A DNA stretch of 64,000 nt from Blautia sp. SC05B48. GTDB lineage: Bacteria; Bacillota; Clostridia; Lachnospirales; Lachnospiraceae. The stretch's first letter is position 1. Each line of letters starts with the position of its first letter. Made by a program: the position numbers and the translations under genes. The notes under the pieces are model-generated. The model did no database searches, was not told where the DNA came from, and saw nothing but the letters and a program-made list of their open reading frames with translations. The DNA lies in assembly GCF_005848555.1 (NCBI RefSeq), contig NZ_CP040518.1, positions 3,053,501 through 3,117,500 on the forward strand, written 5' to 3'. Below are positions 23,338 to 42,210 of this stretch, in pieces.

Positions 23338-25029
23338 ATGGCGATTAGAAGAGAACGGATGAGACTGGGAGATCTTTTGATCAAACAGAATGTTCTGACT
23401 GAGGAAGAACTGAAAAAGGCTTTGGAGCTGCAGAAGGGCAGCGGCAAAAAGATCGGAGAGGTTCTGGTCGATAATGGTTTTATCACGGAAGAGATGATCG
23501 TACGGGCACTGCAGATGCAGCTTGGCCTTAAGGTTGTCCAGCTGGCGGGGGTAACGATCCCGAAGGAAGTGCGGGGGCTGGTCAGTGTCGATCTTTTGAA
23601 AAAGTATACCTGTATTCCCTTTGAACTGGATCCTTATAATGCAAATATCCTGCATCTGGCTATGGCGGATCCGATGGATATGATGGCTATTGATGATATT
23701 TCCATTGTGACCAATCTTCAGGTGGAGCCTTATATCGCAACTACCCGAGATATCCGTACAGCCATCGACCGCTGGTATGGTGCGTCGGAAACGCTGGATG
23801 CAGCCAGACGTTTTACAAAAGAACGGGAGCAGCTTCGGGCTAATACCGGAGAAGAGACAGGAGCAGATGTCAGTGACGCACCTATCGTTCAGCTGGTACG
23901 GTCTCTGCTGGAACAGGCAATCCGCCAGAGAGCCAGTGATGTCCATATTGAAGCATTGGAAAGTAAAGTGCGTGTCCGTTACCGGATCGATGGTACTCTT
24001 TATGAAAAAATGGTTTACGACAACAGCCTTCTTCCTGCAATTTCCACCAGGATCAAGATCATGGGAGGAATGGATATTTCCGAAAAGAGAAAACCACAGG
24101 ATGGACGCCTGACGATCATGGTGGATCGTCAGGAATACGATATCCGAATCTCCTCGGTACCTACAGTACATGGAGAGAAGATTGTTATGCGTATTTCCTC
24201 CAAGCTGAGCCTTACCAAAAACAAAAAAGAGCTGGGGCTTGCACCGGATGAGCTGAAACGCTTTGACCATATGCTGTCTGCACCCTATGGTATTATTTTT
24301 GTTACAGGACCTACCGGAAGCGGAAAGTCTACTACATTATATACGGCGCTGAGCGAACTTAATAAAGAGGCGGTCAACATTGTGACTGTTGAAGATCCTG
24401 TGGAAGCAGATATTGAAGGGATCAATCAGATCCAGGTGAATAATAAGGTGAATCTGACCTTTGCATCTGCACTGCGTTCGATCCTCCGACAGGATCCGGA
24501 TATCATTATGATCGGTGAGATCCGCGACAGGGAAACTGCGGGAATCGCAGTACAGGCTTCGATCACCGGACATCTGGTAGTATCCACCTTACACACGAAT
24601 AATGCAGCAGGCACCCTGAACCGTATGGCGGATATGGGAGTGGAGCGTTATCTCATTGCGGATTCCGTTGTAGGCGTTATCGCACAGCGTCTTGTGCGTA
24701 AATTATGTCCGCACTGCCGCAAAAAACGCCTGGCTACAGAAGAGGAAAAACGTCTGTTGAAACAGGATACCTATAAGGAAATGGAAATATATGAGCCAAC
24801 TGGCTGTGATCTCTGCAATCATACCGGATATTTTGGGAGAACCGGTGTGTTTGAGATCATGGAAGTGAACGAGGAGATCCGTGATCTTATCGCAGAAGGC
24901 GGAAGTTCAGAGGAACTGGAAAATGCAGCCAGACGGGCAGGAATGTGTACACTGCATGACAATGGTATCCGTTATGTTCTGGAAGGAATCACATCCATTG
25001 AGGAAATGCTGAAAGTTTCCTACGAATGA
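23338..25029 (+). CDS. pilB: Type IV pilus extension ATPase (PilB/GspE family) with MshEN-type N-terminus
   Basis: The 563-residue ATPase powers pilin polymerisation. The N-terminal region has two MshEN-like segments, RLGDLLIKQNVLTEEELKKA (about residues 8-27) and KIGEVLVDNGFITEEMIVRA (about 39-58), similar to the c-di-GMP-binding motif of MshE. The AAA core shows Walker A GPTGSGKSTT, the Asp box, Walker B near IIMIGEIRD, and a His box. The C-terminus carries the CPHC and CDLC zinc pairs typical of PilB. A start seven codons later (MRLGDLL) is also possible; GGAG at 23323 favours 23338. It is the first gene of the pilus operon. Confidence 0.92.
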   Translation: MAIRRERMRLGDLLIKQNVLTEEELKKALELQKGSGKKIGEVLVDNGFITEEMIVRALQMQLGLKVVQLAGVTIPKEVRGLVSVDLLKKYTCIPFELDPYNANILHLAMADPMDMMAIDDISIVTNLQVEPYIATTRDIRTAIDRWYGASETLDAARRFTKEREQLRANTGEETGADVSDAPIVQLVRSLLEQAIRQRASDVHIEALESKVRVRYRIDGTLYEKMVYDNSLLPAISTRIKIMGGMDISEKRKPQDGRLTIMVDRQEYDIRISSVPTVHGEKIVMRISSKLSLTKNKKELGLAPDELKRFDHMLSAPYGIIFVTGPTGSGKSTTLYTALSELNKEAVNIVTVEDPVEADIEGINQIQVNNKVNLTFASALRSILRQDPDIIMIGEIRDRETAGIAVQASITGHLVVSTLHTNNAAGTLNRMADMGVERYLIADSVVGVIAQRLVRKLCPHCRKKRLATEEEKRLLKQDTYKEMEIYEPTGCDLCNHTGYFGRTGVFEIMEVNEEIRDLIAEGGSSEELENAARRAGMCTLHDNGIRYVLEGITSIEEMLKVSYE

Positions 25030-25053
25030 GGGATCAGCAACAAGAGGTAAAAA

Positions 25054-26127
25054 ATGTACATATTAGATGAAGTATTATCAGGGTCGGTCCGTGTGAAGGC
25101 ATCGGATGTCCACTTTACTGTGGGCAGGCCGCCGGTGTATCGTGTGGATGGACAGCTGGATCCCATAGAAGGAGAAGCACTGTCACCTGAAATGATGGAA
25201 AAGCTACTCATGCCTCTGATCGATGTAAGACACAGAGCGCAGCTGCAGGAAAACGGGCAGACTGATTTCGCATACGCCATATCCGGGGTAGGCCGTTTTC
25301 GAGTGAATGTGTTTAAGCAGAGAGGAACGCTGGCAGCAGCCATGCGGTGTCTGCCTTTTGGTATCCCGGAACCGGGATCACTGGGGATCCCACCGGAAGT
25401 GGTAGAAATGACTACAAGGAAAAGAGGCCTTGTACTTGTTACAGGACCCACAGGAAGCGGTAAATCCACAACGCTGGCATCACTGATCCATGAGATCAAC
25501 AAAAAGTATTGTTATCATATCATTACGCTGGAGGATCCCATTGAGTATCTGCACAGGCATGACCGGTCCATTGTAAATCAGAGAGAGATCGGAAGTGATT
25601 CCATGGATTACGCACAGGCTCTCCGTGCGGCACTACGCGAAGATCCGGACGTGATCCTGGTGGGCGAGATGCGTGATCTGGAAACGATCTCTACAGCTAT
25701 CACTGCGGCGGAGACCGGGCATCTGGTGTTTTCCACGCTGCATACCACAGGAGCAGATCAGACCCTTGACCGGATCATCGATGTTTTTCCGCCGGATCAG
25801 CAACAGCAGATCCGTATCCAGCTTGCGGCTGTACTGGAATGCATTGTATCCCAGCAGCTTTTGAAGCGGGCAGACGGACAGGGGCGTGTGGCTGCCCTTG
25901 AGGTGCTGTTTGCAAACAATGCCATCCGGAATCTGATCCGCGAGGGCAAAACATATCAGATCCCATCGGTCATGCAGACCAGCAAAAGACTGGGAATGCA
26001 GACCATGGATGATGCGTTGTATGATCTCTATATGAGAAAAATCATCGATGCAGATGAAGCCGTTACCTATGCACAGGATCCGGTATCCATGAACAAAAAA
26101 GTAACCTTTGATCTGCCTGATTTCTGA
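25054..26127 (+). CDS. pilT: Type IV pilus retraction ATPase PilT
   Basis: The 357-residue protein has Walker A GPTGSGKSTT, Walker B with LVGEMRD, and the PilT signature AIRNLIREGK near the C-terminus, which in PilT is required for retraction. This distinguishes it from extension ATPases and from type II secretion ATPases. Its presence predicts retractable pili and thus twitching motility, surface sensing or DNA uptake. It lies 24 bases after pilB with AGAGG upstream. Retraction in a gut clostridial species fits attachment to fibre, mucus or other cells, but the sequence does not say which. Confidence 0.93.
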   Translation: MYILDEVLSGSVRVKASDVHFTVGRPPVYRVDGQLDPIEGEALSPEMMEKLLMPLIDVRHRAQLQENGQTDFAYAISGVGRFRVNVFKQRGTLAAAMRCLPFGIPEPGSLGIPPEVVEMTTRKRGLVLVTGPTGSGKSTTLASLIHEINKKYCYHIITLEDPIEYLHRHDRSIVNQREIGSDSMDYAQALRAALREDPDVILVGEMRDLETISTAITAAETGHLVFSTLHTTGADQTLDRIIDVFPPDQQQQIRIQLAAVLECIVSQQLLKRADGQGRVAALEVLFANNAIRNLIREGKTYQIPSVMQTSKRLGMQTMDDALYDLYMRKIIDADEAVTYAQDPVSMNKKVTFDLPDF

Positions 26128-26140
26128 GAGGAGTGAACCT

Positions 26141-27355
26141 ATGCCGGGTTATTCATATATTGCCGTTGATCGAAACGGAAAAGAGAAGAGAGGCAGTCTG
26201 GAGGCTGATACCCGGGAAAAAGCCCTCGATTCTCTGAAAAATGCAGGAATGATCCCGGTTTCCGTGAGGGAGCAGGGAATTCTGAATAAAGATATTGATC
26301 TTTCTATAGGAAAAAAAGTAAAGTCGAGAGACTTAAGTGTATTCTGCAGGCAGTTTGTCAGTATTCTGCAGGCCGGTGTCCCGATGAAAGAGGCACTGCA
26401 GATGATGGAAGAGCAGACAGAAAACAAAACGCTGAAAAAATCCATCAGTGAGGTGCTTTCCGGGCTGGAGAAGGGCAATACTCTTGCGGATTCCATGAGG
26501 GCACAGCCGGAGAGCTTTCCGCCGATGCTTGTAAATATGGTGGAGGCAGGAGAATCCGCCGGCAGTCTGGATACTTCCTTCTCCCGCATGGCAGTACACT
26601 TTGAAAAAGAAGCAAAGCTGAGAGCAACGGTAATGAAAGCAACCATTTATCCCATTATCCTCATCGTGGTATCCATCGCTGTTATTGCGGTGATGCTGCT
26701 TTATGTGATCCCGATCTTTATCAGCATGTTTGACGGAATGGATATTGAGATGCCGGCTATTACCATGTTTGTAATGAATGCCAGTCGTTGGACCTCGTCG
26801 CACTGGTATGTGCTGCTGGCGGTTATCATTGCGCTGGCAGCCGGGTACCGTGCAGCATACAGAAGTGAACAGGGCCGGCTGGTCATTGATCGTATCAAAA
26901 TGAAAATGCCGCTGTTTGGCAAGCTTACCGTCAAAACAGCCTGTGCTGAATTTTCCAGAACAGTAAGTACTCTTCTGTCAGCTGGGATTTCTACGATCAA
27001 CTGCCTGGAAACAGCAGCAAAGGTTGTCCGGAACATCTATTATACCAATGCGCTGATGGATGTGAGAGAAGCTGTGATGAAGGGTATTCCCATGTCGGAG
27101 CCGCTGCGGGCATCCGGGATCTTTCCGCCGATGGTCTGTCAGATGACCGGGATCGGTGAGGAAACCGGAAACCTGGAGGCTATGCTGGAAAAGCTGGCGG
27201 ATTATTATGATGAAGAGGTAGAAATGACTACACAGAGTGTGCTGGCAGCCATGGAGCCTCTGATCATCGTGTTTATGGCACTGGTCATCGGAATCATCGT
27301 CATTTCGGTTATTTCGCCTATTGCAGCGATGTATTCAGGACTTGATAATCTGTAA
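26141..27355 (+). CDS. pilC: Type IV pilus inner-membrane platform protein PilC
   Basis: The frame overlaps pilT if extended, but GAGGAG lies just before the ATG at 26141, giving 404 residues. It starts with the conserved PGYSYIAVDRNGKEKRG strand. Two T2SF domains follow, each ending in membrane segments: one helix near residues 168-195 (PIILIVVSIAVIAVMLL), one near 220-250 and a last one at the C-terminus (PLIIVFMALVIGIIVISVI). It anchors the ATPases and couples their rotation to pilin insertion. Length and motif order are normal for the family. Confidence 0.93.
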   Translation: MPGYSYIAVDRNGKEKRGSLEADTREKALDSLKNAGMIPVSVREQGILNKDIDLSIGKKVKSRDLSVFCRQFVSILQAGVPMKEALQMMEEQTENKTLKKSISEVLSGLEKGNTLADSMRAQPESFPPMLVNMVEAGESAGSLDTSFSRMAVHFEKEAKLRATVMKATIYPIILIVVSIAVIAVMLLYVIPIFISMFDGMDIEMPAITMFVMNASRWTSSHWYVLLAVIIALAAGYRAAYRSEQGRLVIDRIKMKMPLFGKLTVKTACAEFSRTVSTLLSAGISTINCLETAAKVVRNIYYTNALMDVREAVMKGIPMSEPLRASGIFPPMVCQMTGIGEETGNLEAMLEKLADYYDEEVEMTTQSVLAAMEPLIIVFMALVIGIIVISVISPIAAMYSGLDNL

Positions 27356-27486
27356 AGATAAGAGCCAGGGCAGGACCGGACCGGAAAAGCTTCTGCGGGA
27401 ACTGCCCGAAACAGATTAAGGATGTGCTGCAGTTAAGCATAGGGAGCTGCATTCATCATAGATTTATGAAAAAGGAGAGATACAAT

Positions 27487-28002
27487 ATGTTTAGGCTTTT
27501 AAACAAAAAGAAAAAAGATAACAAAGGCTTTTCACTGGTAGAGCTTGTTATCGTAATTGCAATCATGGCGATCCTTGGCGGGATCCTTGCACCACAGTAC
27601 ACAAAGTATGTTGAGAAGTCCAGAAAAGCTGCTGATGCTTCCAATATGGATGAGATGGTAAAGGTTGTTAAGGTATATGCTGCTGATCCGGCTAATGAGC
27701 TTGCTACAGACACATATACTATTACAATTACACATAATGCTGGAACTACTGTTTCTAAGAATTGTCCGGATGGGCTGAAAGCAGAATTAGAGGCATCTAT
27801 TCCTAAATGGGATACCACCACAACAAAATCCAAAAAGTGGGGTGTTGATGGAAACCCTACTAGTATTGTAGCTATGGTAGCTGTTAATTCTGAGGGTGGT
27901 ACAAGTGTAACTTATACTACTGGGGATGCTGAGGGAACAGAGTCAAAAAATAATAAATTTGCACAGTATATGAGTTCTGGTGAGGCTAAAGCTAAAAAGT
28001 AA
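27487..28002 (+). CDS. pilA: Major type IV pilin (prepilin)
   Basis: The ATG at 27487 follows AAGGAGAG; the upstream in-frame start is rejected. The 171-residue prepilin has a basic leader (MFRLLNKKKKDNKG) cleaved before FSLVELVIVIAIMAIL, with Glu5 of the mature helix present. The remaining C-terminal domain of about 120 residues is Thr/Lys/Ala-rich, with no cysteine pair apart from one Cys in NCPDG. Codons such as GCT, GTT and ACT are clearly more common than in the neighbouring pilus genes, resembling nifJ in this window, which suits a highly expressed structural subunit. It is followed by the prepilin peptidase gene. Confidence 0.9.
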   Translation: MFRLLNKKKKDNKGFSLVELVIVIAIMAILGGILAPQYTKYVEKSRKAADASNMDEMVKVVKVYAADPANELATDTYTITITHNAGTTVSKNCPDGLKAELEASIPKWDTTTTKSKKWGVDGNPTSIVAMVAVNSEGGTSVTYTTGDAEGTESKNNKFAQYMSSGEAKAKK

Positions 28003-28035
28003 TCACGCATAATTTCTACAGAAAGGAATACCCCT

Positions 28036-28794
28036 ATGCTCCTTTTACTTGAAATAGTTCCTTACATAGTCATTTTTATATTCGGGATCACCATAGGCAG
28101 CTTTTTAAATGTCTGCATTTATCGGATTCCGCTTCATCAGTCCATTGTGACGGTTTCCTCCCATTGTATGACCTGTGGGAGGAAATTGAAGTGGTATGAT
28201 ATGGTCCCGGTATTCAGCTGGCTGCTGTTAGGTGGAAAATGTCGTAGCTGTAAATCAAAGATATCCTTCCAGTATCCTGTCATAGAGTCACTGAACGGGA
28301 TTCTCTACGTAGTGATCTGTCTGGTAAACGGGATGGATCTGTTCAGTCTGATCTACTGTCTGATGACATCAGCACTTTTGACCTTAAGTCTGATCGACTG
28401 GCGCACCTATGAGATCCCGCCGGGGATCAATGGGTTTCTGTTTATCCTTGGTGTGGCCGCAGCTGTTCTGGACAGAGGAAATCTTCTTTCTCATCTGGCT
28501 GGTATGGTCTGTGTCAGCGGTTTTTTAGGTATCCTATATCTGATAAGCAGGGGCAGAGCCATCGGTGGCGGAGATATCAAGCTGATGTTTGCCTGCGGTC
28601 TGATCCTCGGGTGGAAGCAGATCATTCTGGCATTTCTGCTGGGATGCATCATCGGCTCTGTGATCCATCTGATCCGTATCCGGGTTCAGGGTGAGGGACA
28701 TGTGCTGGCCATGGGCCCATATCTGTCAGCAGGTATTTTTCTGGCTGCCCTGTGGGGAAATGCGTGGATCAGCTGGTATATATCGTTATTGTGA
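28036..28794 (+). CDS. pilD: Prepilin peptidase / N-methyltransferase (A24 family)
   Basis: The 252-residue polytopic membrane enzyme cleaves prepilin leaders and methylates the new N-terminus. The N-terminal cytoplasmic loop has two zinc-type CxxC pairs (CMTCGRK and CRSCKSK), which belong to the bifunctional form. The two catalytic aspartates are in IDWRTYEIP and in GGGDIKLM. About eight hydrophobic segments are present. It should process the major pilin and the four minor pilins encoded here, all of which carry class III leaders. AAAGGAAT upstream is a moderate ribosome site. Confidence 0.93.
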   Translation: MLLLLEIVPYIVIFIFGITIGSFLNVCIYRIPLHQSIVTVSSHCMTCGRKLKWYDMVPVFSWLLLGGKCRSCKSKISFQYPVIESLNGILYVVICLVNGMDLFSLIYCLMTSALLTLSLIDWRTYEIPPGINGFLFILGVAAAVLDRGNLLSHLAGMVCVSGFLGILYLISRGRAIGGGDIKLMFACGLILGWKQIILAFLLGCIIGSVIHLIRIRVQGEGHVLAMGPYLSAGIFLAALWGNAWISWYISLL

Positions 28795-28811
28795 AATCAG
28801 GAAAGTGTCAT

Positions 28812-28917
28812 GCTGTATACAGAAGGTATTTCTGTAAACAGCAGCAGCCACTTTTCTGTTGCAAAAGTACATCCGCACAGAGGAAAATACAGCAGGTGTA
28901 TTTTTGCAACGGAAAAG
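28812..28917 (+). ncRNA. Tandem strong hairpins between pilD and pilM (structured intercistronic RNA)
   Basis: Two stable stems lie in the 153-base gap. The first pairs 28812-28824 with 28830-28842 (13 bp, one mismatch, 5-base loop). The second pairs 28851-28866 with 28902-28917 (16 bp, one T-G wobble, 35-base loop). Neither is followed by a T tract, so they are not ordinary terminators. They may set the ratio of upstream structural genes to downstream assembly genes by RNA processing or stabilisation. The type label is provisional, since this may be only an mRNA structure. Confidence 0.45.
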
Positions 28918-28947
28918 ACCATGTAAAAGTATTTGGAGGAACCGGAA

Positions 28948-30588
28948 ATGGCGAAATTTTTAAGCATAGAGGCAGAGGCCTCACAGCTCCGTGTGGCAGA
29001 GATAGAAGAAAACGGACGGAAGAACAGGATACGGCACTGCTTCTGTATTCAGGTACCAAAGGGAAGTGTGGAGGACGGACAGCTTCGGGATACCAGGAAT
29101 CTGGCAGGTATTTTAAGAAAGGAACTGTCAGAAAGAGGAATCCGGATAAAAAAAGTATTTTTTGTAGTAGGCTCCACCAGGATCGCAAGCAGGGAAGTAC
29201 GGATCCCTCTTGTAAAGAAGAACCGGATACAAAGTATTATCGAGGCCAATGTCATGGATTATTTTCCAATCGATATCTCAAAGTATGTGCTTTCCTACAG
29301 TATCATCGATATCGAGGAGGTGCAGGAGCAGCCTCCACAATATCATTTGATGGTTTATGCGGCCCCACGGTCCATTTCCAGGGCTTACGGAGAATTTGCG
29401 GAGAATGCAGGCCTTACCATGACCGGCATCAATTATACAGGAGACAGCATCTACCATTCTGTAAAGGGCGCTTTTTCGAAGGGCGTTCATATGCTGGTGA
29501 AGATCGAACTGGAATTTACCGGTATTACGATCATACGTGATGGAGAACTGGCTCTGCAGAGAAATATAAATTATGGTATGGATTCTGCTGTGGAGGCAGT
29601 ACGTGCATTTCCGGTACTGGGAGACAGGCTGGATACAGACGGAGCTCTGAAGCTTCTTTTTGAGAAAAACTGCTTCTACGAGGCACTGGATGTTAATGAA
29701 TCAGAAGAATACAGGAAAGACAGCCAGAGGGCGGATGAAGAGGGAAGGCAGCTGGCGGATGCAAAGGCGGAGGTAACGGAGAGTCTCCGTTATATGATCG
29801 GAAATATATCCAGGATCATGGATTATTACATATCCCGAAATCCGGGAGCTGTTTTTGACTCTATTTATTGCTGCGGGATCGGCGGACAGATCCGTGGAGT
29901 GATGGCACTTCTCGGGCATGAGCTTGGACAGGAGGTACACCGCATCCGGCAGCTTGAGAATTATCAGCTTCCGGATAAAAAGGAAAATGAGGATCTTTTT
30001 CTGTATGTGGCGATCCTGGCGCCGGGCAGATCCGGTGTGAACCTTATGGAAGAGAAGTCCTCCGGTAAAAAGAATAATGAGCAGGAATCTCTGAGAGGTG
30101 CGGTCGTGGTGTTTGCGATCGGTGCAGTGGCCGGGCTTGCTCTTACGGGAGCAGGCTTTGCAAACAGGATCCATCAGCAGAAAAATTACGAATATCTGAA
30201 CCGGCGGGTAACGGAAGAAAGCCCCGTTGAGGACATCTACAATGCCTATACCGAAGCAAAATCGGAATATAAGAAATACAAAAAAATATATGAGCTTACC
30301 AATACCCCCAACGAAAAGCTGAAAAGCTTTCTTGAGGAAATGGAGCAGAAAATGCCGTCAGATATTACTATTGAAAATTTCAGTTCCACAGGAACAGAGG
30401 TCAGTTTTTCCATGCGAGTTACCGGAAAACCGGAGGCAGCGGATACTCTGATGCAGCTGCGGACCTTTGAAAGTCTGGCAACGGTAACTACAACAGGCAT
30501 CGATCAGTCTGACGATGGAACGGTTACTATGACCGTTACCTGTACCTATGAGAAACCGGCAGCTGCTGATGAGAACAGCGAACAGTAA
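28948..30588 (+). CDS. pilM: PilM-PilN fusion, type IV pilus assembly protein
   Basis: The ATG at 28948 has GGAGG close upstream. The 546-residue protein begins with an actin-like PilM domain (about residues 1-370: FLSIEAEASQLRVAEIEENG; later YCCGIGGQIRGVMALL). A membrane helix near 388-410 (GAVVVFAIGAVAGLALTGAGF), then a coiled region and a ferredoxin-like fold follow, as in PilN. In Gram-negative systems PilM is cytoplasmic and binds the N-terminus of membrane protein PilN. Here they are one polypeptide, so the cytoplasm-to-membrane link is covalent. PilO follows 11 bases later. Relative to PilM the PilN part has no separate gene elsewhere in the locus. Confidence 0.8.
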   Translation: MAKFLSIEAEASQLRVAEIEENGRKNRIRHCFCIQVPKGSVEDGQLRDTRNLAGILRKELSERGIRIKKVFFVVGSTRIASREVRIPLVKKNRIQSIIEANVMDYFPIDISKYVLSYSIIDIEEVQEQPPQYHLMVYAAPRSISRAYGEFAENAGLTMTGINYTGDSIYHSVKGAFSKGVHMLVKIELEFTGITIIRDGELALQRNINYGMDSAVEAVRAFPVLGDRLDTDGALKLLFEKNCFYEALDVNESEEYRKDSQRADEEGRQLADAKAEVTESLRYMIGNISRIMDYYISRNPGAVFDSIYCCGIGGQIRGVMALLGHELGQEVHRIRQLENYQLPDKKENEDLFLYVAILAPGRSGVNLMEEKSSGKKNNEQESLRGAVVVFAIGAVAGLALTGAGFANRIHQQKNYEYLNRRVTEESPVEDIYNAYTEAKSEYKKYKKIYELTNTPNEKLKSFLEEMEQKMPSDITIENFSSTGTEVSFSMRVTGKPEAADTLMQLRTFESLATVTTTGIDQSDDGTVTMTVTCTYEKPAAADENSEQ

Positions 30589-30599: not shown

Positions 30600-31319
30600 A
30601 TGAAACTTAAGATATCCATGCATGATAAAATAATATTGCTGATGTTTTTCGGTATTGCGTTCTTTGCGGCGGGATATGTGTTCGGATATCGTCCGCAGAT
30701 GGAGAAGGCAGAGACCTTTCAGGCAGAGAGTGTGTCTGTCCGCGAACATCTGGACAGGCTTCTGAAAATGGCAGAAAAAAAGGAATACTACGTGAAGGAA
30801 ACCTCCTCCATGCAGAAGAAGATCGAGGATTATGTGGCACAGTTTCCGGCAGATATAAAGGAAGAAGACGGGATCCTTCTTGCCAGTGCCATGGAAAATT
30901 CCCTGGATATGAAGGCTTCCAGCGTAGGCCTTGGAACGAAGGAATTCGTGGCTACTATGGACGGAAGATCCCAGTCGGATATTGAGGAACAGCAGGAAGC
31001 AGCGGATGCGTCAGAAAACCAGGAGGATACCGCAACACCGGTTTTGTACCGGACTCAGGATGACCTGCAGATTTCCATCACCTATGCAAGCCTGAAGGAG
31101 CTGGCAGAATATCTGGCATCACAGAATGGAAGGATGACCATTGATTCGGTAAATGCATCCTTTGATCCGACTACAGGAAATCTTACAGGTACGCTGACCG
31201 TGGATCTGTTTTCCATGACAGGGACCTCCAACAGCTATACAAAACCGGATGCAGGCAGTGTGGCACATGGAACCGGTAATCTTTTCGGTACGATAGAGAA
31301 TGCAGAGGCAGGCAAATAG
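30600..31319 (+). CDS. pilO: PilO-like type IV pilus assembly protein
   Basis: This 239-residue protein has one N-terminal membrane segment (IILLMFFGIAFFAAGYVFGY, about residues 11-30), a coiled-coil stretch (KAETFQAESVSVREHLDRLLK) and a C-terminal ferredoxin-like domain (DLQISITYASLKELAEYL). That layout is PilO and it pairs with the PilN part encoded just upstream. Sequence identity in this family is low, so assignment rests on layout and position. AAGGAGG precedes the ATG. An alignment complex of PilM, PilN and PilO connects the platform to the pilus in other bacteria. Confidence 0.75.
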   Translation: MKLKISMHDKIILLMFFGIAFFAAGYVFGYRPQMEKAETFQAESVSVREHLDRLLKMAEKKEYYVKETSSMQKKIEDYVAQFPADIKEEDGILLASAMENSLDMKASSVGLGTKEFVATMDGRSQSDIEEQQEAADASENQEDTATPVLYRTQDDLQISITYASLKELAEYLASQNGRMTIDSVNASFDPTTGNLTGTLTVDLFSMTGTSNSYTKPDAGSVAHGTGNLFGTIENAEAGK

Positions 31320-32976: not shown

Positions 32977-32992
32977 GTTTCTGGAGAAAAGA

Positions 32993-35449
32993 ATGAACAA
33001 AATGAACAGTAAGACAAAACAAAAAAAGAACCAGGGTTTTTCCCTGATCACCGTGATCCTGGCGGTGTCCTTTATCGGCATTTTAAGCATGCTGATGCTG
33101 TATCTGGCAGTAAGCAATTTCTTTATGAAAACTACAGATCTGAAGGGGAAGAACAGCTTTTATACGGCTGAGCGTGCACTGGAGGAAATAAAGACAGGGC
33201 TGCAGCAGGATATAGGAGATGCCATGTCAAAGGCCTACATTCATGTACTGGAGACATACGATAAAAACAGTGCTTCCAAGGATGTAGTACAGGATGAAGA
33301 GCGTCAGAAGGAATTTCAGAATGATTTTATTGAAAAGCTTGCCGAAAGCCTTCAAAAAAGTGGCGGCTCCGGATCAGAATACAGTCTGGAGCATCTCAAG
33401 AGCTATCTGGATCTTACAGACAGCAATAAATACGATCCGGATAAAGAGACACTGATCGTGACCACACCTGCAGGAAGTGATCCGATACTGAAAAAAAGCC
33501 GGAAGGACGGGATCCTCCTGGAAAACCTGAAGGTAATTTATGTGGACGCCAAAGGGCTGGCATCTGTGATCGAAACCGACATCCGTCTGGGTATTCCGGA
33601 GGTACAGTTTCCCACCCCATCCACACTTCCGGATCTGATGAACATGATCGTTGTGGCAGAGGGAGGTATCATATGTGATGCAGATGTGACAAAAGCATCC
33701 ACGATCCAGGGCAGTATTTATGCAGGGCTCTTAAAAGGCAAAGATAATCCGGACGGGGATTCCCGCACAAGTATTCTGCTGAAGCCGGGCGCTTCCCTGG
33801 AGATCACCCGGGGAGACAAGGTTGTGGGAGCAGGTGAGATCAAGGTGGAGGAAGGAGGAACCTTTACCAGTGATGCCGGTGTGACCCTTTGGGCACAGGG
33901 GGCGAGACTTTCCTCTGCGACTGTTAATCTTCTGGGAACTACATATTTTGCAGACGATCTGACTGTGGAATCCGGAAAAAACAGCAATGTGACTATCCGG
34001 GGGAATTATTATGGCTACGGCTCAGCAGGATCGGCAAGAGCAGACAGTTGCAGAAATGCGGGAACCTTGTATACAAACTGGACGGATGCGGCTATCAGCA
34101 GTGCCATCGTGATCAATGGAAAAAATACGACCATGGATCTTTCCGGAGTGGAGAAGCTCATGCTTGCCGGAAAAAATTATATAGGCACCTCCAGGATCGC
34201 ATCAGGAAACAGCAGTGCCGGAAACAGTGATGTGATGACCGGTGAGAGCCTGACAGTAAAGGGAACACAGCTTGCCTATCTGTTTCCTGTGGAACTTTTT
34301 GATCTGGAATCCGGTGTGCTTGGCGGAAATCCGGTGTCCTACGATGAATATAGCCAGTCCGGGCTGATGGGGCAGACAGAGCTTCCGGTGAAATGGGATG
34401 AACCGGTGGAAAGCTGGGGAGGCAAAACTCTCCGCCAGATCGGAGTGGATCAGAACCAGCCGGTACAGGAGGTCTTTTATAATGACAATTCCGGAGGAGG
34501 CTCGGTTTATTTTTACCTGAATTTTTCAGATCCCTCCAGTGCGGCGGCATTTATGGACAGCTATTACAGCAGCAATCCACGGATAAAGTCAAATATGGAT
34601 CAGTATCTGTCGTTCTATTTTGCCGGCGAGAACTCCGGGATCCGCATGGGAGAAACAGATAATTATCTCCGCTATGTGACAAACGGAAATATTCTGACCT
34701 ATGATGGAAATACGGCTTCTGGTGATCTTATGGACGCAACGGATGCGGAGGCCTCCGGAAAGCTGGTCCAGGAGCAGATCAACTATCAGAATACCTGGTA
34801 TGCCCTGAACCGTAAAATGATCACAAGCGTGGATCTTCTCAATACGAAGATGGAGGACTCCGAGGGGATCATACATGATGAGACAGACAGCGGAAGAAGC
34901 GTTTTTGACAATCTGGTCAATGAAAAAGAAATGGTCCGATATCTGTATGAAAAACATCCAAATGATCTGAGCTGCGAATTTACGGCCGGTGAGGAGGATG
35001 ACGGATTGACTGCGATCATCTGCCATAATGGTGTGAGCAGTACCTATGAGGAGAAAGCTTCTGACGGCAGTACCAAAAAGACCACGGTTCCGGGAACAGG
35101 AAGGACACTGGAGATCACACAGGCTATGGCTGACAAGCTTCGTCTTGTGCTTTGCACCGGAGACGTGAAGATCGATGAAGGAGTACAGTTCCGTGGGATC
35201 ATCATGGCAAAGGGAAAGCTGACACTGGAGCCGGGAGCAAAGCTGGAAGCAGCATCCCTTGAGGCTGCCAGGGTGTTCCAGAGCGTTACTGTCAATGAGG
35301 ATATCGCACCTCAGCAGTTTTTCTGGGAGGGAGATAAATACGTCCTTGGAAATACGTCCGCAGAGGATGCCGGAAACGGAACCGGAAAGCTTTCCGACAG
35401 CTATGATCTTTCAGAGTATGTAACTTATGAAAACTGGAAAAAAGAGTAG
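32993..35449 (+). CDS. Giant minor pilin, PilX/GspK-like, lacking Glu5, 818 aa
   Basis: Start 32993 is favoured by GGAG upstream; an ATG three codons later is possible. The prepilin leader (KKNQG) is followed by FSLITVILAVSFIGILSML, where mature position 5 is Thr instead of Glu. Loss of Glu5 is known in GspK-type pseudopilins, which cap the filament tip. SFYTAERALEEIK resembles PilX. The 750-residue exported part contains long stretches of short beta strands (EGGIICDADVTKASTIQGSIYAG and VQFRGIIMAKGKLTLEPGAKLEA) that suggest a beta-solenoid. It is far larger than ordinary PilX. A role at the tip, with the coupled 1828-aa protein, is inferred. Confidence 0.72.
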   Translation: MNKMNSKTKQKKNQGFSLITVILAVSFIGILSMLMLYLAVSNFFMKTTDLKGKNSFYTAERALEEIKTGLQQDIGDAMSKAYIHVLETYDKNSASKDVVQDEERQKEFQNDFIEKLAESLQKSGGSGSEYSLEHLKSYLDLTDSNKYDPDKETLIVTTPAGSDPILKKSRKDGILLENLKVIYVDAKGLASVIETDIRLGIPEVQFPTPSTLPDLMNMIVVAEGGIICDADVTKASTIQGSIYAGLLKGKDNPDGDSRTSILLKPGASLEITRGDKVVGAGEIKVEEGGTFTSDAGVTLWAQGARLSSATVNLLGTTYFADDLTVESGKNSNVTIRGNYYGYGSAGSARADSCRNAGTLYTNWTDAAISSAIVINGKNTTMDLSGVEKLMLAGKNYIGTSRIASGNSSAGNSDVMTGESLTVKGTQLAYLFPVELFDLESGVLGGNPVSYDEYSQSGLMGQTELPVKWDEPVESWGGKTLRQIGVDQNQPVQEVFYNDNSGGGSVYFYLNFSDPSSAAAFMDSYYSSNPRIKSNMDQYLSFYFAGENSGIRMGETDNYLRYVTNGNILTYDGNTASGDLMDATDAEASGKLVQEQINYQNTWYALNRKMITSVDLLNTKMEDSEGIIHDETDSGRSVFDNLVNEKEMVRYLYEKHPNDLSCEFTAGEEDDGLTAIICHNGVSSTYEEKASDGSTKKTTVPGTGRTLEITQAMADKLRLVLCTGDVKIDEGVQFRGIIMAKGKLTLEPGAKLEAASLEAARVFQSVTVNEDIAPQQFFWEGDKYVLGNTSAEDAGNGTGKLSDSYDLSEYVTYENWKKE

Positions 35450-35459
35450 GGATAAGGAT

Positions 35460-36080
35460 ATGAAGCAATTACCGGAAAAGAAAAACAGAGGATTTACATT
35501 GATAGAAATGACAGTAATCCTGGCGATCTTTGCCATTCTTCTTGCGGTTCTGGTTCCGTCTCTGGATCCGGTAGCCGGGTTTCGGGCAAACAGGGCAGCC
35601 ATTTCCATCGGAGCAGCCCTGGACCGGACAAAAACAGAGGCTATGGACCGGCTTGTAGGTGAAATGAGGCTTTCCTGGACTTCAGACGGATATTATATCA
35701 GTTATTATCTGGATCGGGGAAAAACAGGTGTAAGGGAAGAACAGTCGGAAAAGATCACTTCAGGGAGAATGAAGATCAGCTACACAGACAGTAATGGCAC
35801 AACGGTAAATCTCTGGGAAGACGGCACAAACGAGCTGATCCTTACATATGACCGGAGCACAGGAGGGTTTTTGCCCATCCAGAGCCGGGTGTGGGAGCAG
35901 AAGGATATCCTGAAAATGCTCTCTGACGGAGAGGACATCCCTCTTGACCGTCCGGAAAACAGCACGCAGCCCTATTGTGAAAAGATCACGGTTCATGGCG
36001 GAGGACAGAGAACAAGGATCATTACATTGTTTCAGGATACAGGAAAATATACGATTTCTGCAGGAAAGGACGCTTCATGA
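35460..36080 (+). CDS. FimT/GspH-like minor pilin
   Basis: The ATG at 35460 follows a GGATAAGGAT purine-rich site and lies 10 bases after the previous stop; an overlapping upstream ATG lacks a ribosome site. The 206-residue prepilin has leader MKQLPEKKNRG, then FTLIEMTVILAIFAILLAVLVP with Glu5. The ALDRTKTEAMDR helix after the N-terminal segment is typical of FimT/GspH. Its C-terminal domain is short and of normal size. It ends in an ATGA overlap with the next minor pilin gene, which implies translational coupling and a joint role in filament priming. Confidence 0.8.
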   Translation: MKQLPEKKNRGFTLIEMTVILAIFAILLAVLVPSLDPVAGFRANRAAISIGAALDRTKTEAMDRLVGEMRLSWTSDGYYISYYLDRGKTGVREEQSEKITSGRMKISYTDSNGTTVNLWEDGTNELILTYDRSTGGFLPIQSRVWEQKDILKMLSDGEDIPLDRPENSTQPYCEKITVHGGGQRTRIITLFQDTGKYTISAGKDAS

Positions 36081-36727
36081 GAACAGAACAGGAGAGACAG
36101 CAGAAAAACGGAGGCTTCACCCTGGTGGAAATGATCGTTGCCGTTGCGATCACAGCTGTTTTTTCAGCTGTGGTGCTGACGGCGGTTGCAGCAGGCTCAA
36201 GATTATACAGGAGTATTTCAGGCAGCACCAGAGTGCAGATGGACACCCAGGAGCTTACAGACAGTGTGGAGAAGCTTATCGTCAATGCCGGTGAGAGCAT
36301 TTATTACGCATACGGATCCGGAAAATCTCCGGGAGCTCCGATCTCTGATGATATCGATGGCAGTACGGATGGTGACAGGACTCTTCTTCTGTGTTCCATA
36401 CAGAAAAACAAAGGTGGAGCTGGCATCCGTGTGGTGGATGTTCTGGACTGGAGAGAAAGCGAACAGAAGCTTTATTACAGCAGACAGGAAATCACAGCAG
36501 CCGGGACAAGTATGCTGACAGAGCCTTCAGTCTATGGAGAAGGTATCATGGAATTTCATGTGGATGTCAGCCGGGCAGACAGTGACGGCATCATCCGTTT
36601 CCAGCTGATCACAGAAAACCTTGGAAAAAAGCTCCGGACGCTGCATACCGTGGATCTGCGTAATCCGGTTAAGATAATACTGCCGGGCTCACAACAGCAG
36701 GAAGAAGGAGGTCAGCCACAGACATGA
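36077..36727 (+). CDS. PilW/GspJ-like minor pilin
   Basis: This 216-residue prepilin has leader MRTEQERQQKNGG, then FTLVEMIVAVAITAVFSAVVLTAVAAG with Glu5, and an LYRSISGSTRVQMDTQELTDSVEKLI region as in GspJ/PilW. It overlaps by ATGA both with the gene before and with the 1828-aa secreted protein after it. In GspIJK-type tips, the J-like subunit binds I- and K-like subunits. The set encoded here (I-like, K-like, H-like, J-like) therefore matches a complete minor-pilin tip complex, by analogy only. Confidence 0.8.
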   Translation: MRTEQERQQKNGGFTLVEMIVAVAITAVFSAVVLTAVAAGSRLYRSISGSTRVQMDTQELTDSVEKLIVNAGESIYYAYGSGKSPGAPISDDIDGSTDGDRTLLLCSIQKNKGGAGIRVVDVLDWRESEQKLYYSRQEITAAGTSMLTEPSVYGEGIMEFHVDVSRADSDGIIRFQLITENLGKKLRTLHTVDLRNPVKIILPGSQQQEEGGQPQT

Positions 36728-39700
36728 AGATCAAACATAAAAAGCTGCTGCTATCCGGGATAGCAGTGATCACAGCAGGTGTCCTTGGTGCAGGCGCACT
36801 GTTTGAGAGCAGTGTTTCCGTACAGGCTTCGGCGGCAATGATGCCCGGGATCGAAACCATTGTAAAAAATTCCACGGAAAAGAAGCCCTTCCGCATCCTG
36901 GAGCTTGTAGATGACAGTGAAGATGCAGAGATCGGTTATTATGTGTCCGGACAGGAGCCGAGTCTGAAGCTTTATGAATACCAGTACCAGGATGAGGATA
37001 ATGTTACCCGGACCATACGGTTCTCCACTTTGGAGGAAGGGCTTGAAAAGCTTCCGGAAAAGCAGCGGAAGGAATTTGCAATGAATGTAAAGCTCGCGGA
37101 AGACGGATCTGTTGATGAAAACGCAGACACCGGGATCCGTAAGATCCGTGATATTGCAGGTGCTGCCGGAGTGGACAGTGAAAAGAGCAGTCCTCTGACA
37201 TATTCAGACTATCAGGAAAAATATTTTCCTGACGCCGGAGAAGGTGAGGAGGATGGCTGGAAGAAGCTGGAGCTCAGGAATTTTGACGGATCATCCAGGA
37301 CAGATACGGTTACGCTTAACGGAAATTATGTCGAAGATGATGCCGGGGATTATACAAAACAGCAGCAGGAATATTATCCGATCCGAAAGGACGTGGAGCA
37401 GGATAATGAGCGGCCGGAAAAATACCGTGAGAATATCAGGAACTTTTATTTTTCAGAGGGAGATGATGTACGCGGGAGCTATTTCCTGCAGTTTGAGGAG
37501 GTAGATAACGCCACAGTAAACAATGCTCTGAAGGATGAAAATGACAGAGGGCAGAAAACCATACTTCCGGAATACGATTATCCCAATGGAAAATACGGAT
37601 ATTACGAGAATGTGTATACGGATCTGACAGATGAGATCGTAAATAATATCGGAGAAGGGAAGTATACATTCCCCGGCGAACAGCCTGAAGATGCTTCAGT
37701 GGCTTTGGATGGGGTACTTGTACAGGATAACTCTAGCCCTGTGACAGAACAGGAAAGCAGTGATTTTGATGATGGAACTGCAAAGAGCCGGCAGCCCTCA
37801 GAGGAATTTCAGGAGAACCAGCCGGAAGTGGAAAGCAGTGAAATCCAGGATGGGCTTTCGGATGATGAGAATGGCTCTGGTGCCGGTGAGAGTGGGGAGT
37901 TTTCCGATGATACAACCGATATACAAAGTGATGAGGAAAATCCGGAGATCCAGGACTCAGAGCAGCCGGATAGCGGAGCGCCTGACGAAGACGAACTGGA
38001 AATTCAGGATGTTAATGAAGATACTATCACACAGAGCCGTATCCTTGGAGCACTGAAAAACCCGGCATCAGCCGGCAGCCAGACAGATCCGTACATTTAT
38101 CTGGGAGAAAGTATAGAGCAGTATCCTTTCTATAAATATACACTGATCGGTGATCTGGATTACATCAGAGATCAGGTACAGTATGCGCAGGAAGAGGATC
38201 AGAAGCTGGCAGACCAGGGGCAGGAGGCTGTCCGCAAAGAGGGGGATATCACCCTTGCAGATGGTCAGTACTGGTACTGGAAGGATGACGGGACCGGAAA
38301 TGTGGAGCGTGTGGCTGTTTCCATTGTTACGGGAAAACAGCCGGTTGAATACGAGGATATCCAGAGCATTCCGGAGGATTTTTTATATAATTACTACTAT
38401 AAGGTTGAGAAGGTCTGGTTCTGTTGCCGGAGATCTGCAGACGGAAGTGATACAGATCCTTCTGCTTTTGCAAATTTTGGCTGGTATTATCCCTCTTATC
38501 CGGAAAATGAGGACCCTTACCTGAAGGTGGAGGAAGGTGATGGAAAAGCTGCAACGCATTATACTTCAGATGCAGAGTACAAGCTGACACCTGGAAATGG
38601 AAATTACAGCTTTGTTCAGGGAGATGGCTCTGCATGCCAGGTTGAGGTGGATCATTTTTACTATCAGGGAGGCTATGTCAACAACGACTGGTTGAAGAGA
38701 TATGTATTCCATCTTTCTCCCGAGGACGAAGAATTTAAAAACCTGAATATCCAGGTCGATACAAAAAAAGCTTCTGATTTCAGCGAGATATGTGCAGTAC
38801 AGACAGACGCGGATACAAAAGACCTTGCACTGGAGGATGCTCCTGCCAAAGACAGCGAAACGTTATCTGCAGCGGCGGAAAATTCCGATACCGGAATTCT
38901 GGCGGATTATGATCTGATCTATATCAATGGAACGCTTTCCGATACAACGGCAGCCTTTTTCAGAAACTCGACAGTTCCATGCATCATCAATTCCTTCAGA
39001 CTGACCGGCGGTTCTGCCTTGCAGGAAGCATTTAACGCTTTTATAAAGGATGATGATGCAGACGGCAGCTATGTAAACCATTACGTATACGTTTTCAGAA
39101 ATACTCAGCAGTCAGGCGCGGAACACTGCCTTGTGAACACAGCGTTCCATACAAATTTTAATCCGGATGCGGATAAAGACAGCACAGATACCTTTCCGGA
39201 TGCCGTTGCCGGCTTTGAAGAGATCCTGAACTACGTTGAAAGTGAAAATAAATACCGTTCGCTTGGAGTGCTAGGGGCAGACAGCACAGATTCTTCCGAT
39301 CAGGAAGATACATTTTCAGATGGAAGCAGAGAAGCTCTGGAGCCTCTCACAAAAGAAATCTCTCAGGCTCGTGCCCTGGAATATATTATCAACTATCAGT
39401 ATAAACGGCAGGTGACTACAAAAGCAGAGATCAATGTTCTGGAGATCGAACCGGATAAGTGCAGTCCGGAGCTTACCGCTGATGAAGTAAGAAAATGGCT
39501 GGGCGACGATAAATCTGCAGACACCTCCGAAATCGATGCTATAACAGACGGTTCTCAGAATATCAATATCAAAACAATGACAGCTTCGGAATTTGTGGGC
39601 CATGTTGACGATATCCTTTCGGATTATGATATGTTCTATATCGGCGGAACAAAAAACAGAGACAGCGATCCTCTGATCACAGGAGACGGAAGCCTCCGGT

Positions 39701-42210
39701 ATGTGCATATAGGCTCCGGTGTACAGATCCAGAGCAATAGAAAGGAACTTCTGAAGCTTTTGGGACAGCTGGATAATGAGTATGACCAGAGCTACAGCGG
39801 CAGTAACGGAGTAAAACGCTTTGCGCCCTTAAATACCTACGGACCGGACGGCGGCGGATATCTGCGGGGGTCCGGCAATGATATGACAAAGCAGCAAAGC
39901 CAGGAGCTGCTGGATTTTGTCAAAAGCGGCTATCCAGTCGTGATCAGTTCCGAACTGCTTACCGGTGAACGGAAAGCAGACAGCTCAAAGGTTGACACCT
40001 CTTCCTATTATTACAGCTTTATCCAGCAGGCGCTGGAATACGATAATGTTTTTGAAAGCTCCAAGCTTGGCAGTGGGAAAAAAGATATCCGGTTTTTCTC
40101 GGAGCTTGCGAAGCCGGTGATAAATTTTGATGAAAATGGTGGAAGACCGGCGGAGGCAGCAGGTGTGGATGATTTCAGTGACGAAAGCAGCGGAACGATC
40201 CAGGATGAACTGAGATTTACGTTCACTGTTGAAAATGATTCTGACGCTGCTCCTGCCATTTCCACTTATAACTGCAATCTGTATATTGATCTGAACTTTG
40301 ACGGTGTATTTTCCGAGAGGGAAAAGCAGGATAAATATATGGTTGTGCAGGATGAAAGCGGAAATGTGTTAACACAGGTGAAGTATGGAGAGGATGATTA
40401 CCGTTATGAGCTGAAGATGGGGCAGAAATATACGGTGATCCGGAAAATTCCATCGGATTATTTTAAGCTGATCACATGGAAGCTGGAAGCGGTAAGCAAT
40501 CGTAATTCTTATGTCCATACTTCAGAGACAGGGTATTCCAGACAGCAGAATACATCCGGTCAGAAGCAGACGATCCGGGTTCTTCAGCTGATCCCGACAA
40601 ATTGCACATGGACCTTAAGCAGCAGCCGGAGATTTAATGAGCTGCTGTCCGGGGTTCAGGATTTCAATATTGTCATGGAATCAAAAACAGTCACGGAGAT
40701 CAATCAGTATACACAGGCCCAGATGCGAGAGCTTCTCCGGGACAAGCAGATGCTGATCATTGGATTTGCAGATGTATATCAGGATATTTCAAATGCGAAC
40801 CATCAGGCAGACGAGATCCTGGATTTTGTGAAGTCCGGAAAAAGCACTTTGTTTGCGCATGATACCACATCGTATATTAATTATGATTATAATAAGCTGT
40901 ACAGAAAAATAGCATCAACACAGTACGGAGTGGATGAAAACACAGATGTATACTACGATGCGTATCTGCACAGAGCCAACATCAATAATGTGACATGGGG
41001 ACTTTCGCTGAATACTATACTTCGTTCTGTAACGGGAATGGATCGTTATGGGATCGTTTCCGATAAGCAGCTTTCCAACGGAATGACAGTTTCGCAGCTT
41101 TTGAAACAGGGAAGGGGCCTGACGGACGGTTCCTCCGTTACATTTAAGGAGCTGATGGAAAAAGCCGGTGACATAGCATATAAAACCGGAGATCAGGGTG
41201 AAAGCTACGCACAGACCCAGGCATACACCAATAATCTGCTGAATCAGTATCAGCTGGGATCAAATGGAACGACCACAACCAGTATCAGCCGGATCAACGA
41301 AGGTGCGATCACCAAATATCCTTACAAAATGGGAGACATGCTGAACATAGCTGTTACTCACGGGCAGTATTATCAGCTGGGGCTGGAGCAGGACTGTGAT
41401 ATCAACGGGAACAGTGACGGCAAAACGGACATTGTTGTCTGGTATGCATTATCCGGAAGTATTTATGATAAATCTCCTAATGATGCGAGAAATAATTATT
41501 ATCTGTACAGCAAGGGCAATGTGATCTATACAGGAGCCGGGCATTCTGCAGTGACCGGCGACGATGAGATCAGGCTTTTTATCAATGCGATCGTGGCAGC
41601 GGCTAATGTCACAGCCGTACAGCCGGAGGTAAGCTTTGTAAATACTCTTGATCCTTCTGCCCGGACGGAATCGGTTCATTATTATATGACAGACCAGAGT
41701 ACCTGGGCAACCGGGGAGGCAAATACGCTTGAGACAAATGCAGATCTGAACATCAATGTAAAGGATTATAATATGGTCAGCGCAGATCTGGATCAGGATG
41801 ATCTGAAGGATCAGGAGATGGTCCTGAAATTTTATATCGAAGATGAAAACGGACAGCTTCCGGATAACAGTATCCAGAATACCCTTCCGTCTGAACTCAG
41901 GAACAGGAAGCTTACAGATATCACAGAAAAAATCGGAAGCCTGATCCCCTATGGGAAAGAGAATGAGCCGTTATATTGCAGTGCAGATGGAAAATTCCAT
42001 AATGTTCAGAACAATGCCTACAGTCTTACAGTTCCGGGGATCGAGACATATCTGAGAAAGACGGAGGAGGACGGTACACAGGATTACCGCAAAAGCTGCA
42101 AAGTCTGGGCTCAGGTTTCCAGCACGGTTTATCTTTACGGAGAACCAAAGACAAGTACCGTCTGGGCAGCTATTGACCTGAAGCAGCGGCAACTTTTTGA
42201 TCTGGATTAA
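36724..42210 (+). CDS. Giant secreted DUF5057-type protein, candidate pilus-tip adhesin, 1828 aa
   Basis: A Sec signal (MKIKHKKLLLSGIAVITAG, cleavage near VQASA) starts an 1828-residue protein coupled by ATGA to the PilW-like gene. It has no prepilin leader and no LPxTG anchor. Residues about 322-432 are an Asp/Glu/Ser-rich linker. Three copies of a module are visible, each opening with a hydrophobic strand (RILELVDD near 56, NVLEIEPDK near 902, RVLQLIPTN near 1284) and later a strand such as DLIYINGT (730), DMFYIGGT (970) or QMLIIGF (1342). LDFVKSG recurs near 1060 and 1365. An EF-hand-like loop (DLNFDGVFSERE, 1189-1200) and an FG-GAP-like loop (DINGNSDGKTD, 1559-1569) suggest calcium binding. 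The adhesin role is inference. Confidence 0.7.
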   Translation: MKIKHKKLLLSGIAVITAGVLGAGALFESSVSVQASAAMMPGIETIVKNSTEKKPFRILELVDDSEDAEIGYYVSGQEPSLKLYEYQYQDEDNVTRTIRFSTLEEGLEKLPEKQRKEFAMNVKLAEDGSVDENADTGIRKIRDIAGAAGVDSEKSSPLTYSDYQEKYFPDAGEGEEDGWKKLELRNFDGSSRTDTVTLNGNYVEDDAGDYTKQQQEYYPIRKDVEQDNERPEKYRENIRNFYFSEGDDVRGSYFLQFEEVDNATVNNALKDENDRGQKTILPEYDYPNGKYGYYENVYTDLTDEIVNNIGEGKYTFPGEQPEDASVALDGVLVQDNSSPVTEQESSDFDDGTAKSRQPSEEFQENQPEVESSEIQDGLSDDENGSGAGESGEFSDDTTDIQSDEENPEIQDSEQPDSGAPDEDELEIQDVNEDTITQSRILGALKNPASAGSQTDPYIYLGESIEQYPFYKYTLIGDLDYIRDQVQYAQEEDQKLADQGQEAVRKEGDITLADGQYWYWKDDGTGNVERVAVSIVTGKQPVEYEDIQSIPEDFLYNYYYKVEKVWFCCRRSADGSDTDPSAFANFGWYYPSYPENEDPYLKVEEGDGKAATHYTSDAEYKLTPGNGNYSFVQGDGSACQVEVDHFYYQGGYVNNDWLKRYVFHLSPEDEEFKNLNIQVDTKKASDFSEICAVQTDADTKDLALEDAPAKDSETLSAAAENSDTGILADYDLIYINGTLSDTTAAFFRNSTVPCIINSFRLTGGSALQEAFNAFIKDDDADGSYVNHYVYVFRNTQQSGAEHCLVNTAFHTNFNPDADKDSTDTFPDAVAGFEEILNYVESENKYRSLGVLGADSTDSSDQEDTFSDGSREALEPLTKEISQARALEYIINYQYKRQVTTKAEINVLEIEPDKCSPELTADEVRKWLGDDKSADTSEIDAITDGSQNINIKTMTASEFVGHVDDILSDYDMFYIGGTKNRDSDPLITGDGSLRYVHIGSGVQIQSNRKELLKLLGQLDNEYDQSYSGSNGVKRFAPLNTYGPDGGGYLRGSGNDMTKQQSQELLDFVKSGYPVVISSELLTGERKADSSKVDTSSYYYSFIQQALEYDNVFESSKLGSGKKDIRFFSELAKPVINFDENGGRPAEAAGVDDFSDESSGTIQDELRFTFTVENDSDAAPAISTYNCNLYIDLNFDGVFSEREKQDKYMVVQDESGNVLTQVKYGEDDYRYELKMGQKYTVIRKIPSDYFKLITWKLEAVSNRNSYVHTSETGYSRQQNTSGQKQTIRVLQLIPTNCTWTLSSSRRFNELLSGVQDFNIVMESKTVTEINQYTQAQMRELLRDKQMLIIGFADVYQDISNANHQADEILDFVKSGKSTLFAHDTTSYINYDYNKLYRKIASTQYGVDENTDVYYDAYLHRANINNVTWGLSLNTILRSVTGMDRYGIVSDKQLSNGMTVSQLLKQGRGLTDGSSVTFKELMEKAGDIAYKTGDQGESYAQTQAYTNNLLNQYQLGSNGTTTTSISRINEGAITKYPYKMGDMLNIAVTHGQYYQLGLEQDCDINGNSDGKTDIVVWYALSGSIYDKSPNDARNNYYLYSKGNVIYTGAGHSAVTGDDEIRLFINAIVAAANVTAVQPEVSFVNTLDPSARTESVHYYMTDQSTWATGEANTLETNADLNINVKDYNMVSADLDQDDLKDQEMVLKFYIEDENGQLPDNSIQNTLPSELRNRKLTDITEKIGSLIPYGKENEPLYCSADGKFHNVQNNAYSLTVPGIETYLRKTEEDGTQDYRKSCKVWAQVSSTVYLYGEPKTSTVWAAIDLKQRQLFDLD

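Follow-up and report, generated by a model that had tools for sequence, protein, structure and literature searches.

A large secreted protein encoded at the end of a Lachnospiraceae type IV pilus operon probably sits on the pilus tip, held by its last five residues

The window analyzed here, a stretch of 64,000 nucleotides from Blautia sp. SC05B48 (contig NZ_CP040518.1), contains at positions 23338..42210 what is, judged from its sequence, a complete retractable type IV pilus operon of a single-membrane gut bacterium. Its last gene encodes a secreted protein of 1828 amino acids with a match to DUF5057 (PF16480), called the giant protein below, for which a position at the pilus tip, with attachment through the five C-terminal residues, is probable. 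All genes that an initial annotation had claimed for this stretch were found on the + strand and in the claimed order, and the ATGA overlaps reported for the operon end were read in the sequence at 36077-36080 and 36724-36727. The gene domains were assigned by a Pfam scan and by NCBIfam profiles at curated cut-offs, with the following result:

23338..25029, + strand: pilB, extension ATPase (MshEN and T2SSE domains)
25054..26127, + strand: pilT, retraction ATPase (T2SSE domain; named from gene order and domain)
26141..27355, + strand: pilC, platform protein (T2SSF; start moved by eye from 26108)
27487..28002, + strand: major pilin (N_methyl, GFSLVELVIV; start moved by eye from 27424)
28036..28794, + strand: prepilin peptidase (A24_N and A24 domains)
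28933..30588, + strand: PilM-PilN fusion, 551 residues (PilM_2 over cut-off; putative PilN half)
30600..31319, + strand: PilO-like protein (named by position; one N-terminal hydrophobic segment)
31384..32976, + strand: I-like minor pilin, 530 residues (best NCBIfam match gspI, 4.4e-6, below cut-off)
32990..35449, + strand: K-like minor pilin, 819 residues (Thr at +5; long pilin helix and tapirin-fold beta-solenoid in the predicted model)
35427..36080, + strand: H-like minor pilin, 217 residues (best NCBIfam match gspH, 3.1e-6, below cut-off)
36077..36727, + strand: J-like minor pilin, 216 residues ("J" by position; ATGA-coupled to the giant gene)
36724..42210, + strand: secreted tip-protein candidate, 1828 residues (DUF5057, signal peptide region, locus synteny)

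Both ATPases, the platform protein, the prepilin peptidase, class III prepilins and PilM, the components by which a type IVa-like pilus operon is recognized, are thus present, and a large secreted protein is coupled, as proposed, to a set of I-, K-, H- and J-like minor pilins. The PilM-PilN protein additionally matches the PilM profile TIGR01175 over residues 12-346, at 82.6 bits below the cut-off of 133 bits, and the PilO-like protein has no match over cut-off to any Pfam or NCBIfam family. Several gene starts in the list of open reading frames (ORFs) lie too early; the more likely start of the K-like pilin is at 32990, with which its overlap with the I-like gene disappears.

The giant protein matches PF16480 with 163.3 bits (gathering score 27.9) over residues 1052-1380. 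A Pfam scan at E-values up to 1 gave this family only and no PilY1 beta-propeller family, a model of which (PilC/PilY1) the library presumably includes. Alignment occupancy and the predicted model divide the protein as follows:

36724..36831, + strand: signal peptide region, sole transmembrane-like segment of the giant protein
36994..38703, + strand: hypervariable insert, residues about 91-660, within the first alpha/beta domain (column occupancy 0.13-0.52 in blocks of 30)
39421..40113, + strand: alpha/beta domain, residues about 900-1130 (alignment occupancy and predicted model)
39877..40863, + strand: Pfam DUF5057 (PF16480) match, residues 1052-1380 (boundaries cut across domains)
40111..40557, + strand: immunoglobulin (Ig)-like domain, residues about 1130-1278
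40540..41625, + strand: ThuA/GATase-like domain, residues about 1273-1634
41614..42189, + strand: C-terminal Ig-like domain, residues about 1631-1822
42193..42207, + strand: C-terminal tail LFDLD, proposed docking signal (conservation, synteny, genome pattern scan)

The best conserved stretch, residues 1526-1625, lies beyond the PF16480 match, and residues 31-60 have a mean conservation of 0.32. Homologues range from 652 residues, in a shortened operon, to 2847 residues (140 distinct complete proteins), and the hypervariable insert is a candidate ligand-binding head. Among 156 complete homologues, 153 have an N-terminal hydrophobic segment and none has a C-terminal transmembrane segment or an LPXTG motif, features from which we infer export by Sec and the absence of an anchor within the protein itself. 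The window lies in a contig of 3,731,576 bases; a search of this genome with the giant protein returned only the protein itself, and no relative was found in viral contigs. Foldseek run without VIA-align found nothing matching the model of the protein as a whole (best TM-scores about 0.1 on the query), and PilY1 beta-propellers were not among the 50 VIA-align matches listed for it, which excludes nothing.

The link between this protein family and pilus loci was examined in 398 genomes drawn from the phylum and 397 drawn from the family, each search including 14 control genomes. PF16480 was present in 7 and 80 of these genomes, respectively, and in 0 of the 14 controls in each search. The 89 neighbourhoods fetched yielded 88 tip-like proteins, 84 of which had at least 700 bases of upstream sequence, and 72 of these 84 genes lie directly behind a prepilin gene on the same strand. 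The same holds for 64 of the 70 named GTDB loci with upstream room, out of 80 loci returned by a scan that confirmed 218 relatives; the two sets overlap and their counts are not additive, and the draw loci were also the source of the tip profile. The GTDB loci belong mostly to Lachnospiraceae, e.g., Blautia, Roseburia faecis, Anaerocolumna, Kineothrix and Lachnotalea, and the gene order of the operon described here recurs in more than 70 loci, more than expected by chance. For the reverse test, genomes were classed by a profile of the K-like pilin, which matched 109 of the 397 family genomes at 1e-3 and 100 at E-values of at most 1e-10. Of these 100 K-positive genomes 75 contain PF16480, versus 5 of the 297 others (Fisher p 2e-52), so that DUF5057 genes turned out to be anything but located mostly outside pilus loci. 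PilM_2 (PF11104) had also been considered as a marker of pilus genomes; it matches 311 of the 397 genomes, many of them over profile positions 183-303 only, and was dropped because these partial matches were taken for actin-like proteins.

The expectation that DUF5057 genes always follow pilW-like genes describes the usual arrangement and fails as a strict rule, given 12 exceptions among the 84 draw loci, 6 among the 70 named loci, and the divergent loci of a second family treated below. The twelve comprise three Bacilli-like loci (L041-L043), three loci with pilins further upstream (L040, L045, L094), two with less than 1.5 kilobases upstream (L065, L073), a weak match (L127), the downstream member of a tandem pair (L097), a shortened operon (L075) and an orphan (L067). 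In the tandem pair, two giant genes for 1633 and 1661 residues stand behind one minor-pilin set, and both proteins end in L-R. In the shortened operon (L075/L157, one record of Coprococcus catus VPIC661), pilB-pilT-pilC is followed directly by a gene for a 652-residue C-terminal portion of the giant protein; deletion or misassembly has removed what would lie between them. The orphan gene encodes an LFNLD tail and has no pil genes in its vicinity; in its genome, PilM- and PilO-like genes are found on a different contig.

The giant protein ends with LFDLD exactly at the stop codon, and its homologues share the motif L-F-x-L-[DN]. Among the 140 distinct complete homologues, L127 left out, Leu is found at position -2 in 130, Leu at -5 in 105, Phe at -4 in 106 and Asp, Glu or Asn at -1 in 110; these counts are unchanged, with 137 as total, when three Bacilli-like proteins are left out. 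A loose form of the pattern ends 73 of 85 giant proteins (counted without L127 and the Bacilli-like L041-L043) versus 16 of the 1178 remaining ORFs in these loci. The conservation of the five tail columns is 0.84, 0.90, 0.48, 0.94 and 0.71; that of the preceding 160 or so residues is 0.18-0.36 in blocks of 20. According to the predicted model, the final beta-strand extends to the Leu of LFDLD; for the three terminal residues the mean predicted local distance difference test score falls to 63. The tail and stop codon were also written as a degenerate DNA pattern that admits Phe in place of Leu and TGG in place of the stop; the genome as a whole contains it once, at the giant gene, and contains its reversed control five times. 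This conserved island is a new finding and is proposed, from sequence, as a docking signal.

PF16480 was also present in 32 of 98 genomes (mostly of 5-8 megabases) of a second, Bacilli-like family, perhaps Paenibacillaceae. Loci were fetched for 20 of the 32 and, together with three earlier ones, gave 23, of which 21 contained a recognized protein (none in L257 and L264). In all 18 of these 21 loci with a recognized pilB the gene is divergent from pilB; prepilin-like genes lie on its other side in 16 of 21 and pilus genes somewhere in the locus in 20 of 21. The tail reads [DEN]xY in 21 of 21 proteins, with Tyr last in 21, Asp at -3 in 19 and Arg or Lys at -2 in 19. Two families with two fixed C-termini would fit a docking signal that has changed along with its partner, in the manner reported for the N-terminal signals of TcpF and CofJ (PMC9565799).

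Of the candidate partners, the K-like pilin carries Thr at +5 in this operon and Glu at +5 in none of the 89 loci, as is the case for GspK/PilK, prepilins without Glu5. In the available part of the source, the capping subunit of HIJK tip complexes is likewise described as lacking Glu5 (PMC10191384). The absence of this residue marks tip-capping subunits, and the K-like pilin is accordingly a candidate apex subunit. The motif used to select the I-, H- and J-like pilins itself contains Glu5, and the presence of this residue in 89 of 89 loci is therefore no test. At E-values up to 0.1, NCBIfam gave no GspK family for the K-like pilin and Pfam only a weak pectate-lyase-like match below cut-off, with no N_methyl match in Pfam; we take both libraries to include GspK models. 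The predicted model of its large domain shows the fold of the tapirin adhesins, including their C-terminal beta-helix (beta-solenoid), at 7-10% identity to tapirins of Caldicellulosiruptor (4wa0, 6n2b, 6n2c). A profile search of solved structures returned no tapirin at E-values up to 1. The C-terminus of K-like pilins is likewise conserved, around Asn-Trp (YENWKKE here), and is modelled as a confident last strand. One pil locus without a recognized K-like gene contains a single prepilin-signal protein of 2475 residues (L139:8271-15698).

The divergence of the giant protein across the 89 loci follows that of the K-like pilin most closely among the four pilins, with a rank correlation of 0.53 (0.43 with PilM and PilO removed), followed by I with 0.47 (0.39), J with 0.38 (0.30) and H with 0.30 (0.21).

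All 25 K-positive genomes without PF16480 were inspected for a protein in the slot of the giant gene. Ten contained a large slot protein (two cut by contig ends), another was cut at a contig end, and a twelfth had an LPXTG-type protein close to the slot. The other thirteen had no recognized slot protein, from which it follows that K does not require one; in one of the thirteen (G513) a lipoprotein-like ORF of 679 residues without the tail follows. The idea that a long K-like pilin always has a partner was rejected, as L238 (885 residues) and L242 (784 residues) are without one. J-like pilins of at least 400 residues occur in 10 of the 13 genomes without a recognized slot protein and also in 29 of the 89 full loci with a giant protein; together with the slot counts, this shows that either a separate tip protein or a pilin-borne module can be present, and sometimes both. 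The LF-type tail is not carried by the enlarged J-like pilins, two of which have vaguely similar ends (YIKLN in L150, YIRLH in L151).

The eight complete slot proteins have Leu at -2 (8 of 8) and Phe at -4 (7 of 8); four match the family profile mainly over the N-terminal part of the profile and three not at all. That the tail is carried by unrelated cargo is a view weakened by the matches of L136, L148, L152, L237 and L241 to the tip profile; L146 and L239 match L136 and L152, leaving only L147, which ends in IKDLD, without a detected relation.

Immediately upstream of pilB lies a group II intron with an LtrA-type ORF (21375-23120), so that any pilB promoter is confined to the short stretch after the intron, or the intron must splice. 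No cyclic di-GMP riboswitch was found in the window at gathering thresholds, the only matches being one transfer RNA and two to group II introns. The genes downstream (42423-46559) encode a zinc-dependent phospholipase C-like protein, an NlpC/P60 protein containing a PTATP repeat and a transglutaminase-like protein whose N-terminus is signal-like.

Among known systems, the diderm type IVa protein PilC/PilY1 is similarly a large modular secreted protein encoded with minor pilins, and a similar capping of an H-I-J-K-like crown is proposed here; in contrast to it, the giant protein has PF16480 as its only Pfam match, it is built from alpha/beta, ThuA-like and Ig-like domains, its variable part is an internal insert, and it matches no PilY1 family. 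PilC/PilY1 is stated to be absent in monoderms in the accessible section of a 2023 research paper (PMC9934059). With TcpF/CofJ of type IVb pili the giant protein shares a short, aromatic, lineage-specific terminal segment with proposed docking to minor pilins. There, however, the segment is N-terminal and the partner a TcpB/CofB trimer, whereas here it is C-terminal and the system has a K-type crown and PilT. The N-terminal signals of TcpF and CofJ themselves have no obvious shared sequence and do not bind each other's minor pilin, according to the part of the report available (PMC9565799). Modular pilins have been described in Streptococcus sanguinis (PMC8179133, PMC6916266, both as far as available), where PilB/PilC likewise give a monoderm pilus large modules, probably located at its tip (PMC8179133); those modules are fused to pilins, while here a separate secreted protein and enlarged pilins occur. 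GspK/PilK resemble the K-like pilin in the missing Glu5 and a large extra domain, which in the K-like pilin is modelled as a beta-solenoid and gives no GspK family match. No description of such a monoderm tip protein, and none of DUF5057, was found in the titles and abstract starts among the literature matches listed, a coverage that leaves out most subscription journals and all bioRxiv preprints. The initial annotation had not described the hypervariable insert, the C-terminal tail or, in the K-like pilin, the missing Glu5 and the tapirin fold.

Taken as a whole, the genome evidence strongly suggests that the giant protein is displayed at the tip. We consider it reasonably likely that it is a non-homologous functional analogue of PilY1/TcpF, docked by its C-terminus on the crown of minor pilins. 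The I-, H- and J-like minor pilins and the Glu5-less K-like pilin would form a priming crown, by analogy to HIJK systems, with the K-like pilin bearing the large beta-solenoid predicted by its model. The 1828-residue protein would leave the cell via Sec without being anchored, and LFDLD with its free carboxylate, projecting from the last strand of the C-terminal Ig-like domain, would plug into the crown, most likely into K. Synteny, co-divergence and the conservation of the tail are the grounds for proposing this docking. A stalk may be formed by the ThuA-like and Ig-like domains, and the hypervariable insert of the first domain may bind a substrate or a neighbour, on which retraction by PilT, the pilus retraction ATPase, would then pull.

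Several observations weigh against this assignment. The tail could simply complete the last Ig strand, and the linkage within the operon also fits a co-expressed secreted protein. In the Bacilli-like family both the gene order and the tail differ, 12 of 84 and 6 of 70 genes do not lie directly behind a prepilin gene, and 13 of the 25 K-positive genomes without PF16480 have no recognized slot protein. Co-divergence is weak evidence because the genes share the history of the operon, and K and I, which are partners within the GspK-GspI-GspJ complex, by themselves correlate at 0.42 once PilM and PilO are removed in this way.

One alternative is a pilus-dependent release, in which the protein rides the minor pilins like TcpF/CofJ and is then set free in soluble form, with the tail serving as a transient signal for release. 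TcpF and CofJ attach to their minor pilin through a short terminal stretch in which an aromatic residue is critical, and TcpF readily dissociates (PMC9565799, as far as available); the conserved element described here is also short, terminal, aromatic and different between families. A single-membrane cell with Sec, however, needs no pilus for release, the operon contains PilT and the protein a large multidomain stalk, and we therefore regard release as unlikely. A function mainly in assembly and retraction, with the protein capping the pilus for priming control and blocking full retraction rather than binding a substrate, would agree with the observation that diderm pilC/pilY1 mutants regain pili once pilT is lost as well (PMC10191384, available part). 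It appears quite improbable, as a hypervariable insert of several hundred residues and the wide range of protein sizes suggest a variable ligand. The giant protein might also be a co-expressed secreted enzyme whose ThuA-like fold acts on carbohydrate, its pilus link being regulatory or ecological. The conserved adjacency to minor pilins speaks against such an enzyme, which would leave the conserved extreme C-terminus unexplained and does not fit with slot proteins lacking a PF16480 match; only very little probability can be given to it.

Tip display of the giant protein by its C-terminus might be part of a more general scheme, which we put forward tentatively and with considerable doubt. The protein would be a monoderm non-pilin tip effector, and a free C-terminal peptide (LFxL[DN] or [DEN]xY) would act as a general pilus-display signal read by the cognate apex pilin. 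In Lachnospiraceae, K would be a tapirin-fold adhesin and would form, with the giant protein, a two-part polysaccharide-gripping head reeled in by PilT.

The locus may show how PilC/PilY1 is replaced in about a fifth of the sampled genomes (80/397) of a major gut family. This would suggest a concrete, testable role for a Pfam family whose function has not been described, and the question would narrow to five residues. The link suggested by the models between the cellulose-binding tapirin adhesins and an apex pilin may further bear on how gut and rumen bacteria hold on to plant fibre or mucin.
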